From Halorubrum salinarum (GTDB taxonomy: Archaea > Halobacteriota > Halobacteria > Halobacteriales > Haloferacaceae), in the NCBI RefSeq assembly GCF_013267195.1, contig NZ_CP053943.1, forward strand, positions 62,001-126,000: 64,000 bases of DNA, written 5' to 3'. The position numbers and the translations under genes are program-made. This document shows, one piece after another, positions 5,377-17,687 of the stretch. The stretch's first letter is position 1. The number at the start of each line of letters is the position of its first letter. The notes below the pieces were generated by a model. The model saw nothing but the letters and a program-made list of their open reading frames with translations. It ran no database searches and was not told the origin of the DNA.

Positions 5377-8052
5377 ATGACCTCACCTAACGAGGAATCC
5401 CACGACGGAAGTGGTGAACTACCGGATCATACCCACAACCACGGAGAGGATTCTCACAAGCAGGGTCATACACATGACCATGATCACGAGCACATCCAGC
5501 ACACAGGACAAGATGGTGATGACGTTACCTCATCGATAGACCAGGGAGACGTTGCACAATTCTCCGTCCCGGAGATGGATTGCCCGTCCTGTGCAAAAAA
5601 GGTCGAAAACAGCGTCGAAAAACTGGACGGAATCCAGAGCGTCGACCCGCAAGTGGCAACAGGGACATTGACCGTTTCGTACGACGACGAGCAAACGAGT
5701 GCCACCGCGATCGAAGATCGGGTTGAAAAGGCCGGATACACCGTGGAGAACACCGGCGAGGTCACCTCGAAATTCACGGTTTCAGAAATGGATTGTCCGT
5801 CGTGTGCGGGCAAAATCGAAAACGCTCTTGACAGAGTCGGTGGAGTGACCACTTACGAGACGAAGCCGACGACCGGAACCGTCGTTGTCACGTACGATTC
5901 GTCGAGGGCTGGGGAAGCTGACGTCATCGACGCGATCGAAAGCGCTGGGTATGAGGTCACGGATACGACAGGCGACAAATCAGAACGTCAGGAAGCGGGC
6001 GGAGGGCGCGAGAGTATCTGGACGAGTTCGCGCGCACTCAAGACGTGGGTGAGCGGTGGATTCGTCGCCCTCGGCTTACTCTTCGAATTCTTCTTGACCG
6101 GCCAGAATGTACAGATTGCAGGTCTTTTTGGTACGGAGCTACTGGTTGCCGACGTCCTGTTCCTGATTGCTGTAGCCACCGGCGGCCAGGAAATCCTTCG
6201 CAACGGCTACTACTCGGCGCGAAATCTGAACCTCGATATCGACTTCCTGATGTCGGTGGCTATCCTCGGAGCACTCGTTGCGAGCCTCGCATTCGGCGAG
6301 GCACTCTACTTCGAGGCCGCCACCCTCGCGTTCCTGTTCAGCATCGCGGAACTGCTGGAGCGGTACTCGATGGACCGTGCCCGAAACTCCCTCCGCGAGC
6401 TAATGGATCTCTCACCGGATGAAGCGACCGTCAAGCGGAACGGGAGCACGGAGACGATTCCCGTCGACGAGGTCGCAGTTGGTGACATCGTCGTCGTCAA
6501 GCCAGGGGAGAAAATCCCGATGGACGGAAGCGTCGTCGACGGTGAAAGCGCCGTCAACCAGGCACCTATCACGGGTGAAAGCGTCCCTGTCGACAAGACG
6601 ACTGGCGACGAAGTGTACGCCGGCACCATCAACGAGGAGGGGTATCTCGAGGTGGAGGTCACCTCCGAGGCCGGCGATAACACGCTCTCCCGAATCGTGG
6701 AGATGGTCGAAGATGCACAGTCGAATAAGACAGAGCGCGAGCAGTTCGTCGAGCGCTTCTCGACGTACTACACGCCAGTGGTCGTCGTCTTCGCTATCCT
6801 GACGACACTAGCAAGCCCGTACATCCTCGGCACAACCTGGTCCACGGCCGTCGTCTACGGGCTGACCTTACTGGTCCTGGCCTGCCCGTGTGCGTTTGTC
6901 ATCTCGACGCCCGTCTCGGTGGTGTCGGGAATTACGAGCGCCGCGAAGAACGGCGTCCTGATCAAAGGCGGCAATCACCTCGAAGCGATGGGAGCCGTCG
7001 ACGTCGTCGCGTTCGACAAGACGGGAACCCTCACCAAAGGTGAACTCACCGTCACCGACGTCGTTCCCTTGAACGGGAACTCGGAGGAGGACGTGCTCCG
7101 GTGTGCACGCGGGCTCGAGCAACGGAGTGAACACCCCATCGGCGAGGCAATCGTCGCCGAAGCCGGCAGCGCAGGGGTTGCCGAGCGCGAGGTTGATGAC
7201 TTCGAGAGCATCACCGGAAAGGGTGTTCGCGCCGATCTCGACGGGACTCCTCACTTCGCAGGCAAGCCGGGTCTGTTTGAGGAGTTAGAGTTCGACCTGT
7301 CGCACGTTCACGCGACGACCGAGGGTGGCGTCGTGACGCAGACAGCCCGACAGATGTGTGACCGGAACAACTGTCTCGATCTCCTCGAAGAGACCGTTCC
7401 CGAACTCCAAGCAGAAGGCAAGACCGTCGTTCTCGTTGGGACCGAAGACGAACTCGAAGGCGTCATCGCGGTTGCCGACGAGATTCGGCCGGAAGCGAAG
7501 CGAACGGTGGCGCGACTGAAGCAGCTCGGTGTTGCCCGAACGGTGATGCTGACGGGTGACAACGAGCGGACTGCCCGCGCGATCGCCGAGCAGGTCGGCG
7601 TCGACGAGTACCAGGCCGAATTACTCCCCGAGGACAAGGTGACGGCGATCGAGGAGCTCGTCGACGAGTACGACGGCGTTGCGATGGTCGGTGACGGCAT
7701 CAACGACGCCCCGGCACTCGCGACGGCGACGGTGGGCGTTGCGATGGGCGCGGCCGGGACGGACACCGCGTTAGAGACGGCCGACATCGCCCTGATGGGC
7801 GACGACCTCGCGAAGCTCCCGTACCTCTACGAACTCGCGAACGACGCGAACGGCGTCATCCGACAGAACATCTGGGCGAGTCTCGGAGTGAAGGCTGGAC
7901 TGGCGCTCGCGGTCCCCTTCGGATACGTTCCGATCTGGCTCGCCGTCCTCGCCGGAGACGCCGGCATGACGACCGCGGTGACCGGAAACGCGATGCGACT
8001 CTCGCGGATCCGTCCTGCGACTGACGATAGAGACGCGGTGGCCGACAGCTAA
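5377..8052 (+). CDS. P1B-type heavy-metal ATPase, probable Zn/Cd exporter
   Basis: ATP-driven metal efflux pump of 891 residues. A His-rich N-terminus (about residues 9-45) precedes two HMA domains with MDCPSCA motifs (Cys69/72 and Cys140/143). The membrane and catalytic core has TGES, a CPC motif in TM6 (Cys503-Pro-Cys505, followed by AFVISTPVS), the phosphorylated Asp547 in DKTGTLT, an HP locus motif (SEHPIGEA) and GDGINDAPAL. The ISTP context after CPC and the final membrane segment LAGDAGMTTAVTGNAMRL fit the ZntA/CadA (Zn2+, Cd2+, Pb2+) group rather than copper pumps. An insertion of about 40 residues containing HVHA and CDRNNC lies in the nucleotide-binding region. A CDF transporter follows 22 bases downstream. 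Confidence 0.92.
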   Translation: MTSPNEESHDGSGELPDHTHNHGEDSHKQGHTHDHDHEHIQHTGQDGDDVTSSIDQGDVAQFSVPEMDCPSCAKKVENSVEKLDGIQSVDPQVATGTLTVSYDDEQTSATAIEDRVEKAGYTVENTGEVTSKFTVSEMDCPSCAGKIENALDRVGGVTTYETKPTTGTVVVTYDSSRAGEADVIDAIESAGYEVTDTTGDKSERQEAGGGRESIWTSSRALKTWVSGGFVALGLLFEFFLTGQNVQIAGLFGTELLVADVLFLIAVATGGQEILRNGYYSARNLNLDIDFLMSVAILGALVASLAFGEALYFEAATLAFLFSIAELLERYSMDRARNSLRELMDLSPDEATVKRNGSTETIPVDEVAVGDIVVVKPGEKIPMDGSVVDGESAVNQAPITGESVPVDKTTGDEVYAGTINEEGYLEVEVTSEAGDNTLSRIVEMVEDAQSNKTEREQFVERFSTYYTPVVVVFAILTTLASPYILGTTWSTAVVYGLTLLVLACPCAFVISTPVSVVSGITSAAKNGVLIKGGNHLEAMGAVDVVAFDKTGTLTKGELTVTDVVPLNGNSEEDVLRCARGLEQRSEHPIGEAIVAEAGSAGVAEREVDDFESITGKGVRADLDGTPHFAGKPGLFEELEFDLSHVHATTEGGVVTQTARQMCDRNNCLDLLEETVPELQAEGKTVVLVGTEDELEGVIAVADEIRPEAKRTVARLKQLGVARTVMLTGDNERTARAIAEQVGVDEYQAELLPEDKVTAIEELVDEYDGVAMVGDGINDAPALATATVGVAMGAAGTDTALETADIALMGDDLAKLPYLYELANDANGVIRQNIWASLGVKAGLALAVPFGYVPIWLAVLAGDAGMTTAVTGNAMRLSRIRPATDDRDAVADS

Positions 8053-8074
8053 CCACTCTTCACTGGTCGAGACG

Positions 8075-9001
8075 ATGTCCCTCCATACGCACGAGCACGA
8101 CGACGAGGACCGGCGTCAGACGACAGAGCAGAGTACTCGACGGTTGGCGTTCGTGGCCGTTATCAACTTCGTCGGCTTCGCCGTCGAGCTGGCTGGTGGA
8201 CTCCTGTTCGGTTCGGTGGCGCTCATCAGCGACGCACTCCACATGCTGTTCGACATGCTTGCGTACGCGATGGCGTTCGGGGCGAGCTACACCGCCGAAC
8301 GATTCCAGGGCGGTGAGGCGTGGTCGTACGGTCTCCACCGACTGGAGCCGGTTGCGGCCTTCCTGAACGGGGTCTTGCTCCTTCCAATGGTCGGATACAT
8401 CGTCTGGAAGTCCTACCAGCGGTTCCTTGAGCCGGTAGCGATCAATCCGGAGTTGACGCTGATCATCGCGACGGGTGGACTGCTGGTAAACATCGGCTCC
8501 GTGTACGTGTTACAAGGTGATAAGATGAGCCTCAACGAACGGGGCGCGTTCTACCACCTGCTCGGAGACGCCGGTGGCTCTGTTGCGGTAATCGTCTCGA
8601 CTGTCGCTGTCGCAGTGTTCGATCTCCCCATCGCAGACCCTATGGCGGCCGTAGTCATCGGGCTGGTGGTGCTCGCGTCGGCCGGGAACGTTCTCCGGGA
8701 AAGCACCTCGATCCTGTTGGAACGGAGCCCGGTGTCGTCAGAAGAGCTTCAGGATGAATTGACGACACTCGACGGCGTCGACCAGGTTGAGGACCTCCAC
8801 GTCTGGCAGGTGTGTAGTCAACTCACCGTCGCAACCGTCCGGCTCATCGAGACAGCGACCACTCTCGAAGAACAACGAGAGATCCGGGCGCGAGTTCACG
8901 ATCATCTCACGGATCGAAGAATCGATCACGCAACCGTCGAGGTCGTCGGGCGTGCCGACCCCGATACCGACCCTGTCGGTACGACGAATCACTCCCACTA
9001 A
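8075..9001 (+). CDS. CDF-family cation efflux protein (CzcD/ZitB-like)
   Basis: Proton-coupled metal exporter of 308 residues with six predicted membrane segments. The metal sites typical of Zn/Cd members are present: SDALHMLFD (His56, Asp60) in TM2 and HLLGDAGGS (His161, Asp165) in TM5. The C-terminal cytosolic domain from about residue 215 (LDGVDQVEDLHVWQV) is the ferredoxin-like dimer domain, with the conserved HVW. An N-terminal HTHEHDDED stretch may bind metal. It lies 22 bases after the Zn/Cd ATPase and two bases before the next gene, so the three are probably co-transcribed and share a zinc or cadmium tolerance role. Confidence 0.92.
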   Translation: MSLHTHEHDDEDRRQTTEQSTRRLAFVAVINFVGFAVELAGGLLFGSVALISDALHMLFDMLAYAMAFGASYTAERFQGGEAWSYGLHRLEPVAAFLNGVLLLPMVGYIVWKSYQRFLEPVAINPELTLIIATGGLLVNIGSVYVLQGDKMSLNERGAFYHLLGDAGGSVAVIVSTVAVAVFDLPIADPMAAVVIGLVVLASAGNVLRESTSILLERSPVSSEELQDELTTLDGVDQVEDLHVWQVCSQLTVATVRLIETATTLEEQREIRARVHDHLTDRRIDHATVEVVGRADPDTDPVGTTNHSH

Positions 9002-9003
9002 CG

Positions 9004-9411
9004 ATGGCTCACGCAGCACCCAATCGAATGTTCGAAGTGTTAGACGAGACGAACGAAAAGATCGTTGCGATTCGCGTCGGGCGGGGGTCGAGAGCAGGCT
9101 ATCGAGAGTTGTACTCGCTACTCGTCGAAAAAAGTGACCAGCACGGACGCATCCATGTGTACGAGGAAGTTCCGAACTGGACGTTCGGGACGTTTCTCAC
9201 ACATCTCCACGGGGTGATTCCCGATCTCCGGTACGGCCCTGACTTCGATATCGACCGGTACGCCGCAGTCGGCGATTCGAGGTGGGCGACGCTGCTCTTT
9301 GACTGGTGGCGTGTCATCCGGCCGATCTGGCCGGTCGCGCCCGACGAGATGCGATATTTCGACAGTATCGAGCGCGAGAGAGCGCTCGACTGGCTTTCCG
9401 AGAAGGGATGA
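9004..9411 (+). CDS. SpoIIAA-like (STAS-fold) protein
   Basis: A 135-residue cytosolic protein. The pattern RVGRGSRAGYRELYSLLVEKSDQHGRIHVYEEV, seen in two halves, followed by DLRYGPDFDIDRYAAVGDSRWATLL and a Trp-rich tail, matches the SpoIIAA-like family (formerly DUF3478), a STAS-type fold of unclear function. It starts two bases after the CDF stop, so it belongs to the Zn/Cd operon. A role in membrane association or regulation of transport is possible, but the sequence gives no direct proof. Confidence 0.75.
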   Translation: MAHAAPNRMFEVLDETNEKIVAIRVGRGSRAGYRELYSLLVEKSDQHGRIHVYEEVPNWTFGTFLTHLHGVIPDLRYGPDFDIDRYAAVGDSRWATLLFDWWRVIRPIWPVAPDEMRYFDSIERERALDWLSEKG

Positions 9412-9555
9412 GTGACAGATAGGCTTCGGTTCCCGTACCGCAAACAGCACGTTCTCGCCCCGGAAGATTGGCATCCCAGCGGATGAGATACGTCTCTGCC
9501 GTGAGTTTCGATGAGGAATCAACAGTTCCACCGTAGTACGGCAAGCGAGAAGTGG

Positions 9556-10296
9556 TCACACGACTGCGAGGAGCGCATCCGAAGCGGCGCTGACGATCGC
9601 CTCCCAGAGGCTGTTGTGACCGAACACCGCTTCCGGGCCGGTCGCTATCCCTAAGATCGTATCCACCCCAAAGAACGCAAACAGTGCCGCGCCGGCGTAG
9701 TGGGCCTTCCGGACGTCGAAGCGGTGTGAGAACGTGTGGAAGAAGTACGCGTTCGCAAGGCTCACCGGGATGATGACCAACATTTCACCCGCCCAGATCG
9801 CGGCACTAGCCCCGTACTGTGCCGCCAGCCCGATGGTGACAAGCTGGGTCTTATCGCCGAACTCCCCAGCAGCCATCATCGCGAAGATGGTGAGAAATTC
9901 GCCCAGTTGCCCGCCGATCGTGTAGCCGAACGCTTCGAACTCCGGGTTGATCTCCGTGATTCGTGTCCCGACGACGCCACCATCCGTCTGTGTGCCGCTC
10001 TCGACTGGGACAGTATGGCTGCCAGGTGCTGACCGGACGAGTAACACCGCGAACAGCAGGAAGAGCGCCGCCGTAATCCCGTCGAGGACGACGCCCGGGA
10101 GCGCCTGCTGGAGCGCCTGGCCGAACAGGATCTCGAGGACGGTCCAGCCCGCGAATGCCGTCCCGGCCGCCGCGACAACCAGCAGTGGCTTGAACCGGGT
10201 CGACAGTCCGGCGATAATGAACTGGACTTTCTCCCCTGGCAGTACGGTGAGCTGTGCGATGGCCGCGATTACGACGATCTCCAGAAATGGCGTCAT
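9556..10296 (-). CDS. GDT1/TMEM165 (UPF0016) family cation transporter, probable Mn exporter
   Basis: Membrane protein of 246 residues with about six or seven helices. The family carries two copies of an E-x-G-D-K/R-T/S motif; the second is intact here (GEFGDKTQLVTIGLA, Asp148), while the first is altered to PGEKVQF near residue 23. Family members transport Mn2+ or Ca2+. Its ATG overlaps the stop codon of the DtxR-type regulator (ATGA at 10293-10296), so the two form an operon. This pairing supports a role in manganese homeostasis, which is inference from context. Confidence 0.82.
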   Translation of the reverse strand: MTPFLEIVVIAAIAQLTVLPGEKVQFIIAGLSTRFKPLLVVAAAGTAFAGWTVLEILFGQALQQALPGVVLDGITAALFLLFAVLLVRSAPGSHTVPVESGTQTDGGVVGTRITEINPEFEAFGYTIGGQLGEFLTIFAMMAAGEFGDKTQLVTIGLAAQYGASAAIWAGEMLVIIPVSLANAYFFHTFSHRFDVRKAHYAGAALFAFFGVDTILGIATGPEAVFGHNSLWEAIVSAASDALLAVV

Positions 10297-10997
10297 GCGT
10301 CACCCCGGTGCTCAACGCTACCCGAGTCGTCGGCGTCGTTCACGGGGGTCACTCGGATCGACGTCGCAACCCCTTCGGGAATGGCTTGCTCAGTATCGTC
10401 GACAGCGAGAGTAAGCATTCCGAACGGGGCGATGTCAACAATACGGACAGCTGTGCCCGGCGTGATCCCGACGTCGGCCAAGTATGCGAGGTCGTTCTCG
10501 TTGCGATCGCTAACGCGAGTGATGACCACTCGATCGCCGACCTCACAGGCTGACAGGGGTGTCATCGGGTCCTGATTCGGCGGCTCTAGGTCTTCGCTTG
10601 GAATCGGATCGCCGTGGGGGTCTCGCCGGGGGTTTTCGAGTGTCTCGGCGAGCCGCCGTTCGAACTCCTCGCTGATGTGGTGTTCGAGTCTGTCGGCTTC
10701 CTCGTGGACCTGTTCCCAAGGGTAATCGAGGTGGTCGGCCAGATAGGTTTCGAGGAGCCGGTGATGCCGGAGTACTTCGACCGCAACGGTTTTGCCGTCG
10801 TCGGTGAGTTCGCTTCCATGGTACGGTTCGCGTGCGATCAGTCCCTGCGCTTCAAGTCGGTCAAGCGTACTCGTAACCGTCGCCTGTGCCTTATCGAGCC
10901 GATCGGCAATATCAGATGTTGACACCGGTGGACCCGCTTCCTGCTGGAGGTGGTAGATCGTTTTGAGGGTGTCCTCAACTACTGGACTCGAATCCAT
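10293..10997 (-). CDS. DtxR/MntR-family metal-dependent regulator (second copy)
   Basis: Predicted metal-responsive repressor of 234 residues, related over its whole length to the regulator at 1288. It has a winged helix (about 1-65, TSDIADRLDKAQATVTSTLDRL), a dimerisation/metal domain with HHRLLETYLADHL and EADRLEHHISEEF, then RRDPHGDPIP and a C-terminal FeoA/SH3-like domain from about 150. It starts at the ATG at 10997, about 28 bases after a TATA-like TATTAAAT, so the transcript is probably leaderless. It overlaps the GDT1-type transporter gene. An inverted repeat TTAGACCCATCTAA sits between TATA box and start, consistent with autorepression. Confidence 0.9.
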   Translation of the reverse strand: MDSSPVVEDTLKTIYHLQQEAGPPVSTSDIADRLDKAQATVTSTLDRLEAQGLIAREPYHGSELTDDGKTVAVEVLRHHRLLETYLADHLDYPWEQVHEEADRLEHHISEEFERRLAETLENPRRDPHGDPIPSEDLEPPNQDPMTPLSACEVGDRVVITRVSDRNENDLAYLADVGITPGTAVRIVDIAPFGMLTLAVDDTEQAIPEGVATSIRVTPVNDADDSGSVEHRGDA

Positions 10998-11009
10998 TTA
11001 GACCGTTAT

Positions 11010-11031
11010 TTAGACCCATCTAATTTAATAC
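11010..11031 (-). promoter_or_regulatory. Operator-like inverted repeat and TATA box of the second DtxR gene
   Basis: TTAGACCCATCTAA (11010-11023) is an inverted repeat with half-sites TTAGA and TCTAA, the same as the sites at 1264, 1998 and 2015. On the minus strand it follows the TATA-like element at about 11024-11031 and precedes the ATG at 10997. A further half-site TTTAGAC overlaps the start codon. Confidence 0.6.
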
Positions 11032-11084
11032 TTGGGGATCATTGAGAGAGTCGGTTACATCAATTTTCTGTAATTGTGATAATA

Positions 11085-11243
11085 GAGTTCATCGGCCTTG
11101 TTTGGACGCTTCTGAATTGGTTGGTTAGTGGCTCTGTTGGGGTCAACAGGATCTGTCCGTGAGTGCCTCTCAATCCGCTTTGGTGGTTTGGATAGAGACC
11201 GGAAACGGTGATTCCACCGCGTCTAAACAAGCCCGAGTTCATC
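11085..11243. mobile_element. MITE-like element with 16-bp inverted ends and 9-bp target duplication
   Basis: A stretch of about 141 bases (11094-11234) is bounded by imperfect inverted repeats: GGCCTTGTTTGGACGC on the left (11094-11109) and GCGTCTAAACAAGCCC on the right (11219-11234), matching at 14 of 16 positions. It is flanked on both sides by the direct repeat GAGTTCATC (11085-11093 and 11235-11243), as expected for a target-site duplication. No transposase is encoded inside, so it would be a non-autonomous element or a solo remnant. The parent insertion sequence is not in the window. The rest of the gap 10998-11392 contains no gene I can support. Confidence 0.7.
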
Positions 11244-11392
11244 TTATCGCAGCAGGCGAAGTAGGTGTATCAAAATGAAGTTGGTGAAAAGAGGTTAACC
11301 GTCTCTGGGGGTGATAAAAAGAAGCCTACGAACTCTCCTTGGTCGAGTTGGAATCGTACAGAGATGTGATTGGGTACCTCACCGTTGATTGA

Positions 11393-12651
11393 TTAGGTCC
11401 GACGATGGTCAATTCCACCGGCGACGTTGAGGAGCGCGGAGACTATCGTTAGTCCGAGTTGTGGTTCCCGAAACCAGAAGGCCGTAGAGGTAATGACGGC
11501 TCGAAGCCCTACGAGCAGCAGTGAGAGAGCCGGCACGTCTTTATTGACACTTCCAACGCCACCTCCATCACTCGTGTACCGGGCCCCTCGCCAGATTCAC
11601 CAACTGGGAGGCGACCTGCTTCATATGGAATACGCTCAGTTTGGACGCTCCAGACCACCTTTCCTGATTCGTTTACTTCGACAAACCGGCGATTCAACGT
11701 GTCTGTGATCAATGTATTCCCGTTCGGGAGATGATCAGCATCTTGAGGCCAATTAAACGTGATACCACCAGCACGGTCGAGTGTCCACGCTGGTTCCACA
11801 CTCCCATTCTCAGTCCGGTGGAGTTCGACGACCCAGTCGTGCTCGCTATCAGCGACGAGGACGGCATCATCCCCGAGCCACTGAGGATTGTGCTGGTGGT
11901 TGAGCACGTCAGGGTCGCCACATCGAATATCGCCATCACTGTCATAGTCGGCTAACTGGCATGATATATGACAGTTGGTCTCGTTTGAATCGGTCGTGTC
12001 TTTGTTGTTGACGTCGACGACACCCTCTCCGCGCTTGATGACGAGAAGCTGGTTGGCGTTCCGCACTGAGACGAGATAGTGTCCGGTGCTGGTGACGCCC
12101 ACGTCGTTGATGTGTAGCCAGTCGGTCGTTGTCGGATCTTGTGGGGCGTCGTAGAACGAACTCGCATTCCACTGCCACGTGACTTCGCCGTTCTTGACAG
12201 TAAAGATACGCTTGTACTCCATATCGGTGACCAAATATTCACCCGATTCGAGTCGTTCGACATCGTGGACTACGCTGTTCTTGTTCGTTCGCACCGGGAA
12301 GCTATACCCCGAAAGCACCTGCAGGTCTTTCCCGGGGTCAATGACTCGGAATCCCGTTCGGGTACAGGGAGACTCGTCTGATCCGCACGAAGCGTACCCG
12401 CTGTCCATGAACCCGGCTAACACTGTTCCGTTCTCTGTTTGGGTGACGTTAAAAATAGCTATCAGCACTCGATTCACGTCACGTAGTGTTCGTACCGTTG
12501 AGGAGGTAGACGCTATGCCGCATTCGTGCCAGCCTGGACCACCCCTCTGAGACTCGACCAAGGTTTGGGACGTCTGGTTTATCTCCGAAGCCGTCCCAAT
12601 CGCAGGGGCGAGCATTGTACTGCTAACAAGCGTGAGAACGAACAGAACCAC
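11393..12651 (-). pseudogene. Arylsulfotransferase (ASST) family protein, C-terminus frameshifted
   Basis: The main frame (11509-12651, 380 residues) has a signal peptide at the N-terminus and the ASST-type beta-propeller: HDVERLESGEYLVTDME, DWLHINDVGVTSTGHYLVSVRN, NPQWLGDDAVLVADSEHDWVVEL and LPNGNTLITDTLNRRFVEV. After GEGPG the frame runs into a basic, Cys-containing tail that does not look haloarchaeal. In another frame the sequence continues as TSDGGGVGSVNKDVPALS, then hydrophobic segments, to a TAA at 11393. A one-base loss in the G/C run at 11579-11589 would account for this. Family members transfer sulfate between aryl compounds, though haloarchaeal ones are uncharacterised. Without its membrane tail the product may be non-functional. 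Confidence 0.75.
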
Positions 12652-12697
12652 GCCGAAAAGGATTGGATAGCTGCCCCACGGAGATCAGGAACGGGGT

Positions 12698-12976
12698 TCA
12701 TTTCTGGATATACAGCGAGTACATGATAACCGCGAGACCAAGGGCAACGAACAGGCTGTTGATGAGCACGCCGAGGGCCAATCCGACAGAAAAGAACTGG
12801 TTGGCCACGCCAGTCAGGATTGCCCCGAGTGTGATAATACCGAACCCGACACCAAGGACACGTAGTGAATCCTCACCCGTGCGTCGATAGGCCTTAAATG
12901 CAATGTAGGTGATCCCGCCACCGAGAAACAGGATTACGAACTTGACGACTGCAATCGCCGTGATGACGCCGTTCAT
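12698..12976 (-). CDS. Small three-helix membrane protein, DUF7521-like
   Basis: A 92-residue protein made of three predicted membrane helices: about 5-25, 40-63 and 67-90, with a short basic loop FKAYRRTGEDSLR between the first two. The same layout, including K/Q-AYRxYRR-type loop and a GFxIIxxGxIxEG-like second helix, recurs in the two proteins at 45762 and 46053. It overlaps the stop of the HTH gene 12973-13350 (ATGA), so they form an operon. Function unknown; pairing with a winged-helix regulator twice in this window suggests a sensor-like or membrane-stress role. Confidence 0.75.
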   Translation of the reverse strand: MNGVITAIAVVKFVILFLGGGITYIAFKAYRRTGEDSLRVLGVGFGIITLGAILTGVANQFFSVGLALGVLINSLFVALGLAVIMYSLYIQK

Positions 12977-13350
12977 ACTTCGTCTCCCATCATCGACCAG
13001 ATATCTACAAGCCGTTCATCGGTGGACTGTGGGGGCCGCTCAATACTCACCGAAAACTCGCCTGTATCGTCCACAGATATCATCACGTTATCGAATGATC
13101 TTTTGTAATGGGTAACACGTCCACCCCCGGAATTGATCGTATCCCACTCTCGGACAAGGGAAGCGGAACTGAGTAATTCTAATTTACGATACAACGTCGA
13201 CTTTGGGATGTCACAGACATCATTCAATTCGTTCGCGGTCATGGGTTCAACGGTTTGGCGGAGGATGGAACGACAGTCGGGATCATCCAGCGCATCAAGG
13301 ACTTCCTGTAACGCCGGTGCGTCCTCGGATGCCGCTGAATTATTTCCCAT
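12973..13350 (-). CDS. Winged-helix (ArsR-like) transcriptional regulator
   Basis: A 125-residue protein with a helix-turn-helix at about residues 20-75: LDALDDPDCRSILRQTV, ELNDVCDIPKSTLYRKLELL and LVREWDTINSGGGRVTHYKRS, the last being the wing. The C-terminal half (DNVMISVDDTGEFSVSIERP) is a small beta-rich segment. It overlaps the following membrane-protein gene by four bases. The arrangement parallels the regulator at 45409 and its membrane partners. No metal-binding cysteine cluster is visible, so what it senses is unknown. Confidence 0.85.
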   Translation of the reverse strand: MGNNSAASEDAPALQEVLDALDDPDCRSILRQTVEPMTANELNDVCDIPKSTLYRKLELLSSASLVREWDTINSGGGRVTHYKRSFDNVMISVDDTGEFSVSIERPPQSTDERLVDIWSMMGDEV

Positions 13351-13722
13351 AATTCAATTAAATACATTGGACGAAAAATAGTGTCCGATTGTTTTTTGAC
13401 GGTTCTCCTGATGAAGCAGGGCTGGGAAAAGTCTCGATTCCCAGCTCAAAAGTAACGATTTGAAAGAATAGAGAGGTGAGCGAAGACTTAGTGACATAAT
13501 ATTGAGAGGAGTATATTTTGTATTGATCTCTGAGTCGGGGTTCATTATTTTCAGATGGATCTTATATTCCCCTACAGAGCGAGCAGGGATAGGAAACGTA
13601 TCATGAATTAATATTTCATGAGATGTGATACATAACCCACCTTCTGTCTGTGTCTGGAAATCATTCATATTAAATTAAATTTGTATGACCCAATATCCAT
13701 TATTATACAACAAATTGCTATT
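13351..13722. other. Gene-free AT-rich gap
   Basis: The 372 bases between the HTH gene and the 3' end of the TFB gene are AT-rich compared with neighbours. The open frames found here have a composition unlike haloarchaeal proteins (few acidic residues, many Ile/Lys/Ser), so I do not call a gene. The end nearest 13350 should contain the HTH promoter on the minus strand. Confidence 0.5.
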
Positions 13723-14682
13723 TTATATATCCTTTTCGTACACTTCGAGAAGCTCCTTATATCGATTTTGTATTGTAACTTGGCTTATGTGGGCGACTTC
13801 GCTCACAGTCTCTTGTGTGAGCTGTTCGTTCGTAAGATGGGTCGCAGCATATAACGCAGCAGCCGCTAATCCTGCCGGGTTCTTCCCACTGTGTACCCCA
13901 TTTTCTGTCGCAACCTCAAGAATTTCTCGAGAACGCTGTTCCGCTTCATCGCTCACGCCAAGTGATGAAGCGAATTGTGGAAGAAATTGAGTCGGAAGCT
14001 CCGGTTCAATTTTTAACTCAAGTTCACGGGATAGATATCGATACGCTCGCTGGACTCGGATTTTTTTAACACGACTCACATCAGAGAATTCTTCTAATGG
14101 CCGTGGCATTCCATGCTGTCGTGTAGCCGCGTACAGCGAAGCTGTTGACATCCCTTCAATCGATCGGCCGGGTAGTAAGTCCTTCTCTACAGCACGTCTG
14201 TATAGGATACCCGCTGTTTCTCGGATTGATTTCGGAAGGCCGAGTGCAGACGCCATCCGGTTTATTTCACCGAATGCTTGTTTAAGATTTCGTTCATGAG
14301 AATTTTTTGCTCGAAACCGTTCATCCCACATCCGAAGACGCTGTAACAGAGCGCGTTGACCATCAGGAACTGATTTTCCGTTAGCGTCCTCATCTCGCCA
14401 GCCGATAGTTGTACTTAAACCCTTATCATGCATCAGCCGTGTTGTTGGGGAACCAACACGACTCTTCTCATCGCGCTCCTCTGACGTGAACGCACGCCAC
14501 TCTGGACCATGATCGATCCGGTTTTCCTTGAAAATCAACCCACAATCTTCACAAGTTGATTCACCTCCGGTATCGTTATGAGTGATTTGACCTGAACACT
14601 CGGGGCACACGCTGTTTTCAATGTACTCTGAGGCCTGATTGAGATTATCTAACGGCTGTTCGATGTTATGTTCTTGGCGCAT
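13723..14682 (-). CDS. tfb: Transcription initiation factor IIB (TFB)
   Basis: Archaeal general transcription factor of 319 residues. An N-terminal zinc ribbon has CPECSG (about residue 26) and CEDCGLIF, followed by the B-finger/linker region (GPEWRAFTSEERDEKSRVGSPTT, read in parts) and two cyclin-like repeats (about 120-210 and 215-310; the second includes GKNPAGLAAAALYAATHL). Haloarchaea have multiple TFBs that partner with TBPs to select promoters; a TBP gene lies at 267-827 in this window. Codon use is less GC-rich than that of nearby metal genes, consistent with a different history. Confidence 0.95.
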   Translation of the reverse strand: MRQEHNIEQPLDNLNQASEYIENSVCPECSGQITHNDTGGESTCEDCGLIFKENRIDHGPEWRAFTSEERDEKSRVGSPTTRLMHDKGLSTTIGWRDEDANGKSVPDGQRALLQRLRMWDERFRAKNSHERNLKQAFGEINRMASALGLPKSIRETAGILYRRAVEKDLLPGRSIEGMSTASLYAATRQHGMPRPLEEFSDVSRVKKIRVQRAYRYLSRELELKIEPELPTQFLPQFASSLGVSDEAEQRSREILEVATENGVHSGKNPAGLAAAALYAATHLTNEQLTQETVSEVAHISQVTIQNRYKELLEVYEKDI

Positions 14683-15484
14683 AATAGTAACCCGATGAAT
14701 AGGTTTGTTCCCCCCAAATCGTGGGGCTTCTTACCTGTTCTGAGGGGTAGCTGCGTATTGAACAAGTGGCGGAATCCCATTCGGGAGGAATCCGACCTAT
14801 ACCTTTGTAACCAAACTGTTGATAGACTTATTGTAATTAGGAAGCATCCTATCAATAAAAATATGTTCACCGGTATAATGAATACTAATCATTCAATTCA
14901 CGATGGGGTGGTCAGCCTAGTAAATAAAGAACAACGACCTGTCCCCTTACTAAACGAATTTTAGATGGGGTACGAACGGAACCAATTCGTATTGGAAAGT
15001 CTATTTCCGTCGCAGAGATCGCAACAATTGGGATTTTCTGGTTCAGCCTCGGCCTCGGACTGCGACCATGTGTCCTCGGTTGGTACCAACGAATTCTGAT
15101 GAACCCACTAGTAATCGTCCTAGGTGTTACAGCAATCAGGTCTCATCTGTCAGTTTGGTGGACTAACATTCACTTATCGGTTCCTAGTAGAGTGTTCTCA
15201 ACGTATCACCCGATGGTACAGGCGGCGACAACCTCCTGCTCATACAAATCACCGTGCGCCGCTGTACGATGACAGACTCCCGTAGATGGACTAACAATTC
15301 CGAATCTCCCACTCCTGGCATTCATGCACATTACAGCCACAGAAGCTATTTGTTTGGCTGTATCTGAGAGACAAACGAACAACATCAGACAATTAATGAT
15401 CAAAAGCGCCAATTTATCAGCACAACTCAGTATCGGAACTCGACGTATTGCTCACGCAAACCGATCAGTAACAGGTATTTTCAA
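14683..15484. other. 802-base gap without a convincing gene
   Basis: The region is lower in GC than its surroundings. Short frames are present on both strands but none has haloarchaeal codon bias, a recognisable domain or a suitable start. One stretch at about 14990-15125 reads in a frame that gives a hydrophobic segment (GIFWFSLGLGLRP), possibly a relic of a membrane protein gene. The TFB promoter must lie near 14700 on the minus strand and the promoter of the CPBP gene just before 15485. Confidence 0.4.
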
Positions 15485-16213
15485 ATGACAAATTTAATTA
15501 CACGGATCCAGTCTGTCGGCAGTGCAGTTGGACTGACGTACGGCTCAACGGTTATTGGATCGATTATTGTCACCATCGCTGCCGCATTACTGGGCGCATT
15601 CGGGATCGACGTAACCGCTCGTCCATCATTGCGCCTCGTGATGACCACGATCTTGTTACAAGGAGTAACATTCGGAGGGCTCTCAATCCTCTATCTCAGA
15701 TTCCGCGGTCTCAACTACACATTCGTTTCGCTTTCGATTCCGGACCGCCGGGATATTGCTGTGACTATCGGAGGAATAGGTACGCTTCTCAGCCTACTCG
15801 TTGTCTCATCACGCATCACTTCCGCACTTGGACTGGAATCTGCAGAAAATCAGGTAGTAACGATTGGTCAACAGAATCCAACAGCCTTTCTGGTTCTAAT
15901 TCCTCTATCGTTTTTGTTAGTTGGTCCGGGCGAAGAGCTCCTATACCGAGGATTGGTTCAGGGGACACTTCGAGAAACACTACATCCAACCCGTGCAATC
16001 GTTCTTGCAAGCATCCTCTTCGCGTCGATCCATCTCTTTTCGTTGAGCGGGGAAGGGAAACTCGTGTACGTCGGTATCGCATTCATTCTCGCCTTGGTAC
16101 TCGGTGCGACCTACGAATACACCGATAACCTCACTGTTCCGGCCGTGATTCATGGTGCGTATAATGCGATACAATTTACCATCGCATATCTAACAGCTAC
16201 TGGCGGCGTGTAA
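15485..16213 (+). CDS. CPBP (CAAX protease / bacteriocin-processing) family membrane protease
   Basis: Membrane protein of 242 residues with about seven or eight helices. The three CPBP motifs are present: GPGEELLYRG (Glu150, Glu151, Arg), FASIHLFSL (His183) and VPAVIHGAYN (His223, Asn227), which together form the putative metalloprotease site. Family members act in CAAX processing, self-immunity or membrane-protein turnover; the substrate here is unknown. It stands alone, with 70-160 bases of non-coding sequence on either side. Confidence 0.88.
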   Translation: MTNLITRIQSVGSAVGLTYGSTVIGSIIVTIAAALLGAFGIDVTARPSLRLVMTTILLQGVTFGGLSILYLRFRGLNYTFVSLSIPDRRDIAVTIGGIGTLLSLLVVSSRITSALGLESAENQVVTIGQQNPTAFLVLIPLSFLLVGPGEELLYRGLVQGTLRETLHPTRAIVLASILFASIHLFSLSGEGKLVYVGIAFILALVLGATYEYTDNLTVPAVIHGAYNAIQFTIAYLTATGGV

Positions 16214-16375
16214 CTGTTCGCTATCTGTTGATAGCGTATTTGTTTCTTTGACCGCTACACAAGTGCCTTACTTGCGGATAGTTTGACTGTAGCCGAATAT
16301 GTTCGTAGGGGTCTCTCACTGACGGGGATTCCGCATTCCTGTTTTAATACGACAACAAAGTATTCCAAATGTACC

Positions 16376-17533
16376 ATGACTAGATCTTTCGGTGCCCCTG
16401 GAACCGGACTATCCCGGAGAGAATTTCTCGCTGCGACTGGGGTGACAGGCGTGTCGGCGTTGGCGGGCTGTTCATCCAAAACAATCGACGCGCCGACAGC
16501 GGCCACGGGCACCCCGAGTGAAGCACAGACGACATCGTCTGATCTTCCCTACACCAGTCCTCCGACGGTGATTAATGTCGACGAACAGGGAGGATCCGTG
16601 ACGATGGGGACGCAGCCGGCGCGACACGCGGTCCATCCACTTGATTCAATGGGCGGCCCGGTCGAGTTTCCCCGAGTCTGGGCATGGCAGGCCGACGACA
16701 ACGACCCGAGCGTTCCAGGCCCGATCCTTCGGACAACCGAAGGGAATGACATGGAAGTGACCCTCGACAATACGAATGGGCGTCGACCCCATACCATCCA
16801 CTTCCACGGGGTCACCAAAACATGGAAGAACGACGGTGTTCCGACATCGACCGGAATCCAAGTCCCGGCGGGTGAGAAACACACCTATGAAATTCCGGCG
16901 AACGTTCCGGGGACGCACCTGTACCACTGTCACTTCCAGACACACCGTCACATCGATATGGGAATGTACGGTATCTTTCGGGTCGACCCCGAAGGCTACG
17001 AGTCGGCGGACCGGGAGTACTTCATGACGATCAAAGACTGGGACTCACGGATCCCGGAAAAATGGGCCGGAGAGGCGGATTTTACCTACGATACGACCTC
17101 GCGGACTCCGGACGTCTTCACGGTTAACGGGAAGAGCGCACCCCGGACGCTCCACCCCGAACAAGGGTCACCGATCATTGTCGATCAGGGCGATCAGGTC
17201 CGTATTCACCTCGTCAACGGGGGATACATGTCACACCCGATACACATCCACAACCACCGCTTCCGGCGCGTCGAAAAGGACGGTGGGACGGTTCCGGAGG
17301 CCACCCGCCACGACATGGATGTCACGAATATTGCACCCGCTGAACGACACACAATCGAGTTCACGGCGGACGCAGACCCCGGGATCTACCTCATGCACTG
17401 CCACAAAGTCAACCACGTGATGAACGGGTCGTTCTACCCCGGTGGCATGCTTACGGGGGTTGTGTATCGCTCCGTCATGGATACGGACATCTTCAGCCAG
17501 CTCATGGAATACGCCGGCTACGAACCGAACTGA
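16376..17533 (+). CDS. Two-domain multicopper oxidase, Tat lipoprotein
   Basis: Predicted exported copper oxidase of about 385 residues. The ATG at 16376 places SRREFLAATGVTG and the lipobox LAGCS at the N-terminus, giving a Tat-exported lipoprotein; an earlier in-frame start at 16283 would bury the signal. Domain 1 has HTIHFHG (His139, 142, 144) and THLYHCHFQTHRHIDMGM (Cys185). Domain 2 has HPIHIHNHRF and YLMHCHKVNHVMNG (Cys342). Cysteine and nearby His and Met are present in both domains, so both may hold type 1 copper, unlike the oxidase at 2094. It may oxidise Cu(I) or organic substrates outside the cell. Not in an obvious operon. Confidence 0.88.
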   Translation: MTRSFGAPGTGLSRREFLAATGVTGVSALAGCSSKTIDAPTAATGTPSEAQTTSSDLPYTSPPTVINVDEQGGSVTMGTQPARHAVHPLDSMGGPVEFPRVWAWQADDNDPSVPGPILRTTEGNDMEVTLDNTNGRRPHTIHFHGVTKTWKNDGVPTSTGIQVPAGEKHTYEIPANVPGTHLYHCHFQTHRHIDMGMYGIFRVDPEGYESADREYFMTIKDWDSRIPEKWAGEADFTYDTTSRTPDVFTVNGKSAPRTLHPEQGSPIIVDQGDQVRIHLVNGGYMSHPIHIHNHRFRRVEKDGGTVPEATRHDMDVTNIAPAERHTIEFTADADPGIYLMHCHKVNHVMNGSFYPGGMLTGVVYRSVMDTDIFSQLMEYAGYEPN

Positions 17534-17687
17534 CACGATCAGACACCCTCCCCCCTCCCTCCGAGCCTTTCTAGTCGGGGCTCTACAGCACGGTTCCACT
17601 CATACACAGACTCTCAGGTGGTCACGAGGTGCGTCTCGGGGAAACGAGAGAGACAGATAGTTGTGTGTGAGTTACTAAGCTCGCGTA

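Follow-up and report, generated by a model that had tools for sequence, protein, structure and literature searches.

A 141-bp MITE with the ends of IS5-family elements, upstream of a DtxR–FeoA gene in Halorubrum salinarum, belongs to a widespread haloarchaeal family

In the part of a review on prokaryotic MITEs considered here, such elements are described as carrying terminal inverted repeats (TIRs) and direct repeats, as depending on an autonomous element for mobilisation in trans and as tending to be multicopy, with few archaeal cases given (PMC10969869). For Haloquadratum walsbyi, the sections used of a second paper describe five MITE families that have only their terminal bases in common with partner transposons, and that sometimes occur without a functional partner in the genome (PMC3119063). 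We report here an element of this kind from Halorubrum salinarum, found in a window of 64,000 nt (contig NZ_CP053943.1, positions 62,001 to 126,000); its parts and neighbors are collected in Table 1. The end sequence TTGTTTAGACGC was not found in the literature searched, a scope outside which ISfinder and supplements lie, and no paper was recognisable, judged by titles and abstract openings, as being on this 141-bp MITE family. The family may already have been named, e.g. in ISfinder or in supplements beyond that scope.

Table 1. Features of the insertion and its surroundings (window coordinates)
Feature	Position	Strand	Evidence
Left target duplication copy, GAGTTCATC	11085..11093	.	exact direct repeat D2, spacing 150
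Non-autonomous element (MITE), 141 bp	11094..11234	.	137-141-bp same-ended haloarchaeal relatives; empty orthologous site in two sister genomes
Left TIR, GGCCTTGTTTGGACGC	11094..11109	+	inverted repeat I1; family consensus GGCCTTGTTTAGACGC
Right TIR, GGGCTTGTTTAGACGC	11219..11234	-	inverted repeat I1; identical to right end of IS5-type elements in L088, L090 and L091
Right target duplication copy, GAGTTCATC	11235..11243	.	exact direct repeat, 9 bp
DtxR-type metal-dependent repressor fused to FeoA domain	10293..10997	-	Pfam PF02742 2.2e-30, PF04023 6.5e-17, PF01325 1.7e-12
Putative promoter/operator-like block with TATTAAAT and GGTCTAAAT repeats, uninterrupted	10998..11040	-	direct repeat D1; CTAATTTAATA kept in relatives
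Arylsulfotransferase-like gene, 3' end towards element	11509-12651	-	

A preliminary description, made from the letters of the window alone, had read the locus as a MITE-like insertion with imperfect 16-bp ends, an exact 9-bp flanking duplication and no transposase inside, and each of these features holds. The TIRs pair at 14 of 16 positions (16 of 18, or 89%, with the adjoining bases), and both copies of the duplication stand exactly where they had been placed. All six frames of the 141-bp element were checked for a conserved reading frame and none stays open in over 12 of the 67 family copies, by which coding capacity is rejected. Together with the elements of the IS5 family that have the same ends and with the empty sites described below, the TIRs and the target site duplication (TSD) sustain the MITE reading: the window element is an ordinary MITE, a further member of a widespread family.

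The anatomy of that family was taken from a paired-end scan of 282 sequences, with up to three substitutions per end and a spacing of 60–3000 bp, which left 94 pairs after context deduplication; pairs of 200 bp or more were retained only with matches at 7 or more of the 9 flanking bases, and shorter pairs were kept without that condition. Among the 67 MITE-sized pairs (136–143 bp), the TSD is an exact 9 bp in 35 and an exact 8 bp in seven, a further 10 match at 7–8 of 9 positions, and in the remaining 15 the defined ends have no duplication, exact or near. When flanks of different copies were paired as a control, exact matches occurred in 8 of 4422 pairings, as against 35 of the 67 true pairs. 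Chance, i.e. coincidental repeats with a flanking 9-mer, could appeal to the imperfection of the inverted repeats, but we give it next to no weight; it is already refuted by this control, by family members that have independent TSDs, each at another site, and by the empty sites. The window TSD is itself exact, and nine given bases match at one set position with a probability of 4^-9.

The preliminary description had also suggested comparison with a relative free of the insert, and this comparison bears it out. The DtxR gene is present in four relatives at 89% DNA identity (G105, G111, G117, and G139). We joined the window flanks with one TSD copy, aligned the product to the relatives, and took 500 shuffles of the right flank as the null. 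In L114 the joined flanks score 171.5, compared to 134.5 for the insert-bearing sequence and 140.5 for the best shuffle; in L115 the corresponding scores are 168.5, 130.5, and 137.5. Joined flanks in L113 and L116 score 130.5 and 116.0, against shuffle maxima of 131.5 and 123.0, respectively. Thus, clear empty orthologous sites, as judged from these alignments, are found in two sister genomes (L114 and L115). Flanks joined with one or with two TSD copies are nearly tied (171.5 and 169.5 in L114, 168.5 and 169.5 in L115), and where the duplication would stand L114 has GAATTCATC. An apparent jump of sister-genome homology from 11036 to 17649 was set aside as partly an effect of the BLAST cut-off, since global alignments continue the homology beyond the element. 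Searched as a whole against the genus's 51 other genomes, the right flank (11244–12651) matches nothing at E ≤ 0.001, and the upstream gene is therefore a local difference.

As first noted, the insertion lies upstream of the DtxR promoter region: 96 bp separate it from the ATG (10997) of the DtxR–FeoA gene, and it falls outside the promoter-like block. On the minus strand, the sequence from the element to the start codon reads AAGTATTAAATTAGATGGGTCTAAATAACGGTCTAAATGG. The TATA-like/operator-like block is partly conserved overall, with CTAATTTAATA conserved in all four relatives. With the block intact and CTAATTTAATA kept, the putative TATA-like box and two GGTCTAAAT repeats stay beside the gene, and from the sequence the insertion probably does the DtxR promoter no damage; the influence on DtxR expression that the preliminary description proposed may still exist as a quantitative one. 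A possible autoregulatory operator is formed at 10996–11016 by ATTTAGACC, present in two copies with a spacing of 12 bp, the first of which overlaps the DtxR start codon. The gene sits in a metal-related cluster that spans 5377–17533 of the window and includes a P-type ATPase with heavy-metal-like motifs (5377–8052) and a cation-diffusion-type transporter (8075–9001), both assigned from their translations by eye, a GDT1 antiporter (Pfam; 9556–10296) whose gene overlaps that of DtxR–FeoA by 4 bp, and a multicopper-oxidase-like frame (by eye; 16283–17533).

The preliminary description had staked its reading on the existence of a transposon with related ends, and such transposons exist: IS5-family elements of 0.93–0.98 kb carry the same TIR and a 9-bp TSD. 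More precisely, the same ends (GGCCTTGTTTAGACGC) and 9-bp duplications are found on elements of 932–979 bp that encode IS5-family transposases. Within this family, the ISH1 subgroup makes 8-bp duplications and the IS903 subgroup 9-bp duplications. The 932-bp element in L091 has the exact duplication CATCCAGCG; exact 9-bp duplications occur together with stop-free transposase frames in L260 (934 bp) and L265 (967 bp). The 286-aa transposase of L090 matches the NCBIfam IS5-family model NF033579 (E 1.5e-65; 221.6 bits, cut-off 140) and, in Pfam, DDE_Tnp_1 (PF01609, E 3.5e-16); the L090 and L088 copies are without matching 9-bp flanks. Among the IS-sized pairs, an exact 9-bp duplication flanks 17 of 23; this count is biased by preselection, since pairs of at least 200 bp needed at least 7 of 9 matching bases.

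Larger elements with the same 16-bp ends, flanks matching at 7–9 of 9 positions, and extra genes look like cargo-carrying IS5 elements. Their cargo includes a HAD-hydrolase/NUDIX fusion (L237, 1551–3828), with a near-identical frame in L148 (4724–7374), lipoprotein-like frames without a Pfam match (L157, 2766–4313; L262, 842–2334) and, in an element without transposase, a methyltransferase (L189, 6452–7574).

The MITEs and the IS elements have a target preference in common as well. A palindromic preference, CTGAATACA-N5-TGTATTCAG, emerges from both 35 MITE and 17 IS sites, all of them exact duplications. At least 10 of 16 palindromic positions match at 13 of 93 sites, compared to 0.44% of random sites; the window's own site fits the preference only weakly, with 7 of 16 positions matching against a null mean of 4.2 (sd 1.8). 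The preferred palindrome, GTGCTGAATACA-N5-TGTATTCAGCAC, often stands near a GGCTCTGTTGAAATC-like sequence, which is 27–99 bp off at 9 of 12 unoccupied sites (L282–L293) and lies within 120 bp of 12 of 82 insertions, compared to 39 of 2000 random places. That sequence is probably the end of another mobile element.

Is the window element then simply an IS5 element that has lost its middle, a solo deletion derivative and not part of a separate MITE family? Over its last 31 bp it shares 87% identity with the right end of L090/L091, and true deletion derivatives do occur, as shown by a 473-bp element in L093 that has both IS ends and an exact TSD. A fresh deletion would, however, keep IS sequence, and the ∼110-bp interior, unmatched in any IS found, instead matches 137–141-bp relatives of many genera at about 65–81%. 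This homology to the 141-bp family already largely refutes the deletion reading, which we regard as improbable. Comparison of the MITE interior with the IS elements gives 14 short matches at E ≤ 1e-3, mostly at the ends (best E 1.65e-4); the interior is thus unrelated to the IS elements, and mobilisation is therefore argued from ends, duplication, and target only.

On these grounds we favor, with a probability of roughly 0.94, a MITE inserted by the IS5-family transposase of a same-ended element, with a donor outside the genome and a copy now stranded. In this scheme, the IS5-family DDE transposase would have come from a full-length element that has these 16-bp ends too. It would have attached to the ends of a donor copy and linked the donor to staggered cuts 9 bp apart, repair of the cuts then duplicating GAGTTCATC. 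It would thus be an IS5-type transposase that moved the window copy, from a donor that presumably lay outside the present genome and was perhaps plasmid-borne. No second pair of matching ends was found in the host genome. Its IS5-like transposases are distant or broken: the best whole-length match has 36% identity with one stop, and the closest pieces have 49% over 113 and 91 aa. With no other paired ends, no close intact transposase, and no matching partner found in the genome, the copy looks stranded.

The element is single-copy in its host (G000; 3.34 Mb in three contigs, with the window on a contig of 155 kb), which thus does not show the multiple copies per genome that are usual for MITEs, a trait that is not strictly defining. 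A BLAST search with a 159-bp query finds relatives at E ≤ 0.1 in 34 of 170 genomes of the taxonomic family, a count that includes the host genome itself and in which some rows are short end matches; there are 1–4 matches per genome. At class level, with a near-consensus relative as the query, 43 of 391 genomes and 20 of 86 genera match at E ≤ 1e-5, and in a phylum-wide sample 7 of 294 genomes match, every one in the window's own order. Seven plasmid records carry relatives, from Halorubrum, Halorarius, Halorhabdus, Halomontanus, Haloglomus, and Haloprofundus. The multicopy state is seen only across genomes and in Halomicrobium katesii. The bacterial matches listed for the 16-base end pattern were left out of account, hundreds being expected by chance in 257 Gb. 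A phage origin was rejected: the phage collection gave no match to the element, and in the paired-end scan the seven viral contigs that bear one end motif yielded no pair.

Two genomes hold unusual forms. Halomicrobium katesii has at least 13 paired copies (among them those at L138, L143, L146, L149, L164, L187, L193, L194, L207, and L212) that are nearly identical to one another, several with 8-bp instead of 9-bp duplications. In plasmid pHTIA of Halorhabdus tiamatea (L085, 3006–3275), a 140-bp family element seems to be fused to an extra 130 bp that has the same inverted repeat at its end, and an exact 9-bp duplication encloses the whole 270 bp.

After removal of sequences at least 90% alike, 45 non-redundant copies remain, of which 28 are 141 bp, 13 are 140 bp, three are 139 bp, and one is 137 bp. 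Their mean pairwise identity is 66%, and substitutions outnumber gap events by ∼14 to one; the terminal 16 bp are near-invariant, and the interior is conserved in part only. Such constancy (41 of 45 copies at 140–141 bp despite the divergence, with partly conserved interior blocks) could be that of a mobile regulatory or RNA-coding module, a structured RNA or operator array whose interior is useful to the host, and the window copy does fold better than its shuffles on both strands (z −2.9 and −3.2). The inverted ends may explain this better-than-shuffle fold. RNAalifold confines pairing to the terminal repeats, with a covariation term of 0.22; the interior alone yields 0.0 kcal/mol for either strand and does not outdo 100 column shuffles; and the four Rfam matches are all far under their gathering scores, none of them covering the element. 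Conserved RNA structure is therefore rejected, with the TIR stem alone pairing and no Rfam family at gathering score. The element is, moreover, absent at the locus in two sister genomes, and we consider a host-function module quite unlikely.

The favored reading, a MITE moved by an IS5-family transposase, leaves the element mildly unusual for its kind, in its low copy number and in its near-fixed length across an order at ∼66% pairwise identity. Both features raise the minor question of how such elements persist. One tentative answer, which we think possible though not probable, is an old MITE lineage that extends through an entire archaeal order, where genomes hold one to a few copies and bursts are mostly absent, and whose interior drifts while the length stays at 140–141 bp; selection for transposition (on spacing or internal binding sites), and not use to the host, would then hold the length, with spread by plasmids and IS5 partners met by chance. 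The present analysis documents a haloarchaeal MITE family, its 9-bp duplication, the palindrome that it prefers as target, and its likely IS5 partner, along with an empty orthologous site. With these features on record, similar inserts need not pass for regulatory elements.

Compared with the known systems, the element resembles the MITEs of H. walsbyi, as the sections used of their description present them (Dyall-Smith et al. 2011, PMC3119063), in being short and non-coding, with transposon-related TIRs and a target duplication set by the partner, in differing from the partner everywhere but at the terminal bases, and in occurring at times where the genome has no functional partner; in contrast, those MITEs are multicopy (55 copies per strain in Table 4 of that paper), whereas the window's host has one copy. 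It likewise has the TIRs and direct repeats of the prokaryotic MITEs treated in the part of the review considered here (PMC10969869), and mobilisation in trans by an IS5 partner would be the counterpart of theirs. With the haloarchaeal IS elements of the IS5 family (NF033579) it shares the ends GGCCTTGTTTAGACGC, the 9-bp duplication, and the target palindrome; those elements encode a transposase of ∼286 aa, whereas the MITE has none and its interior is unrelated to theirs.
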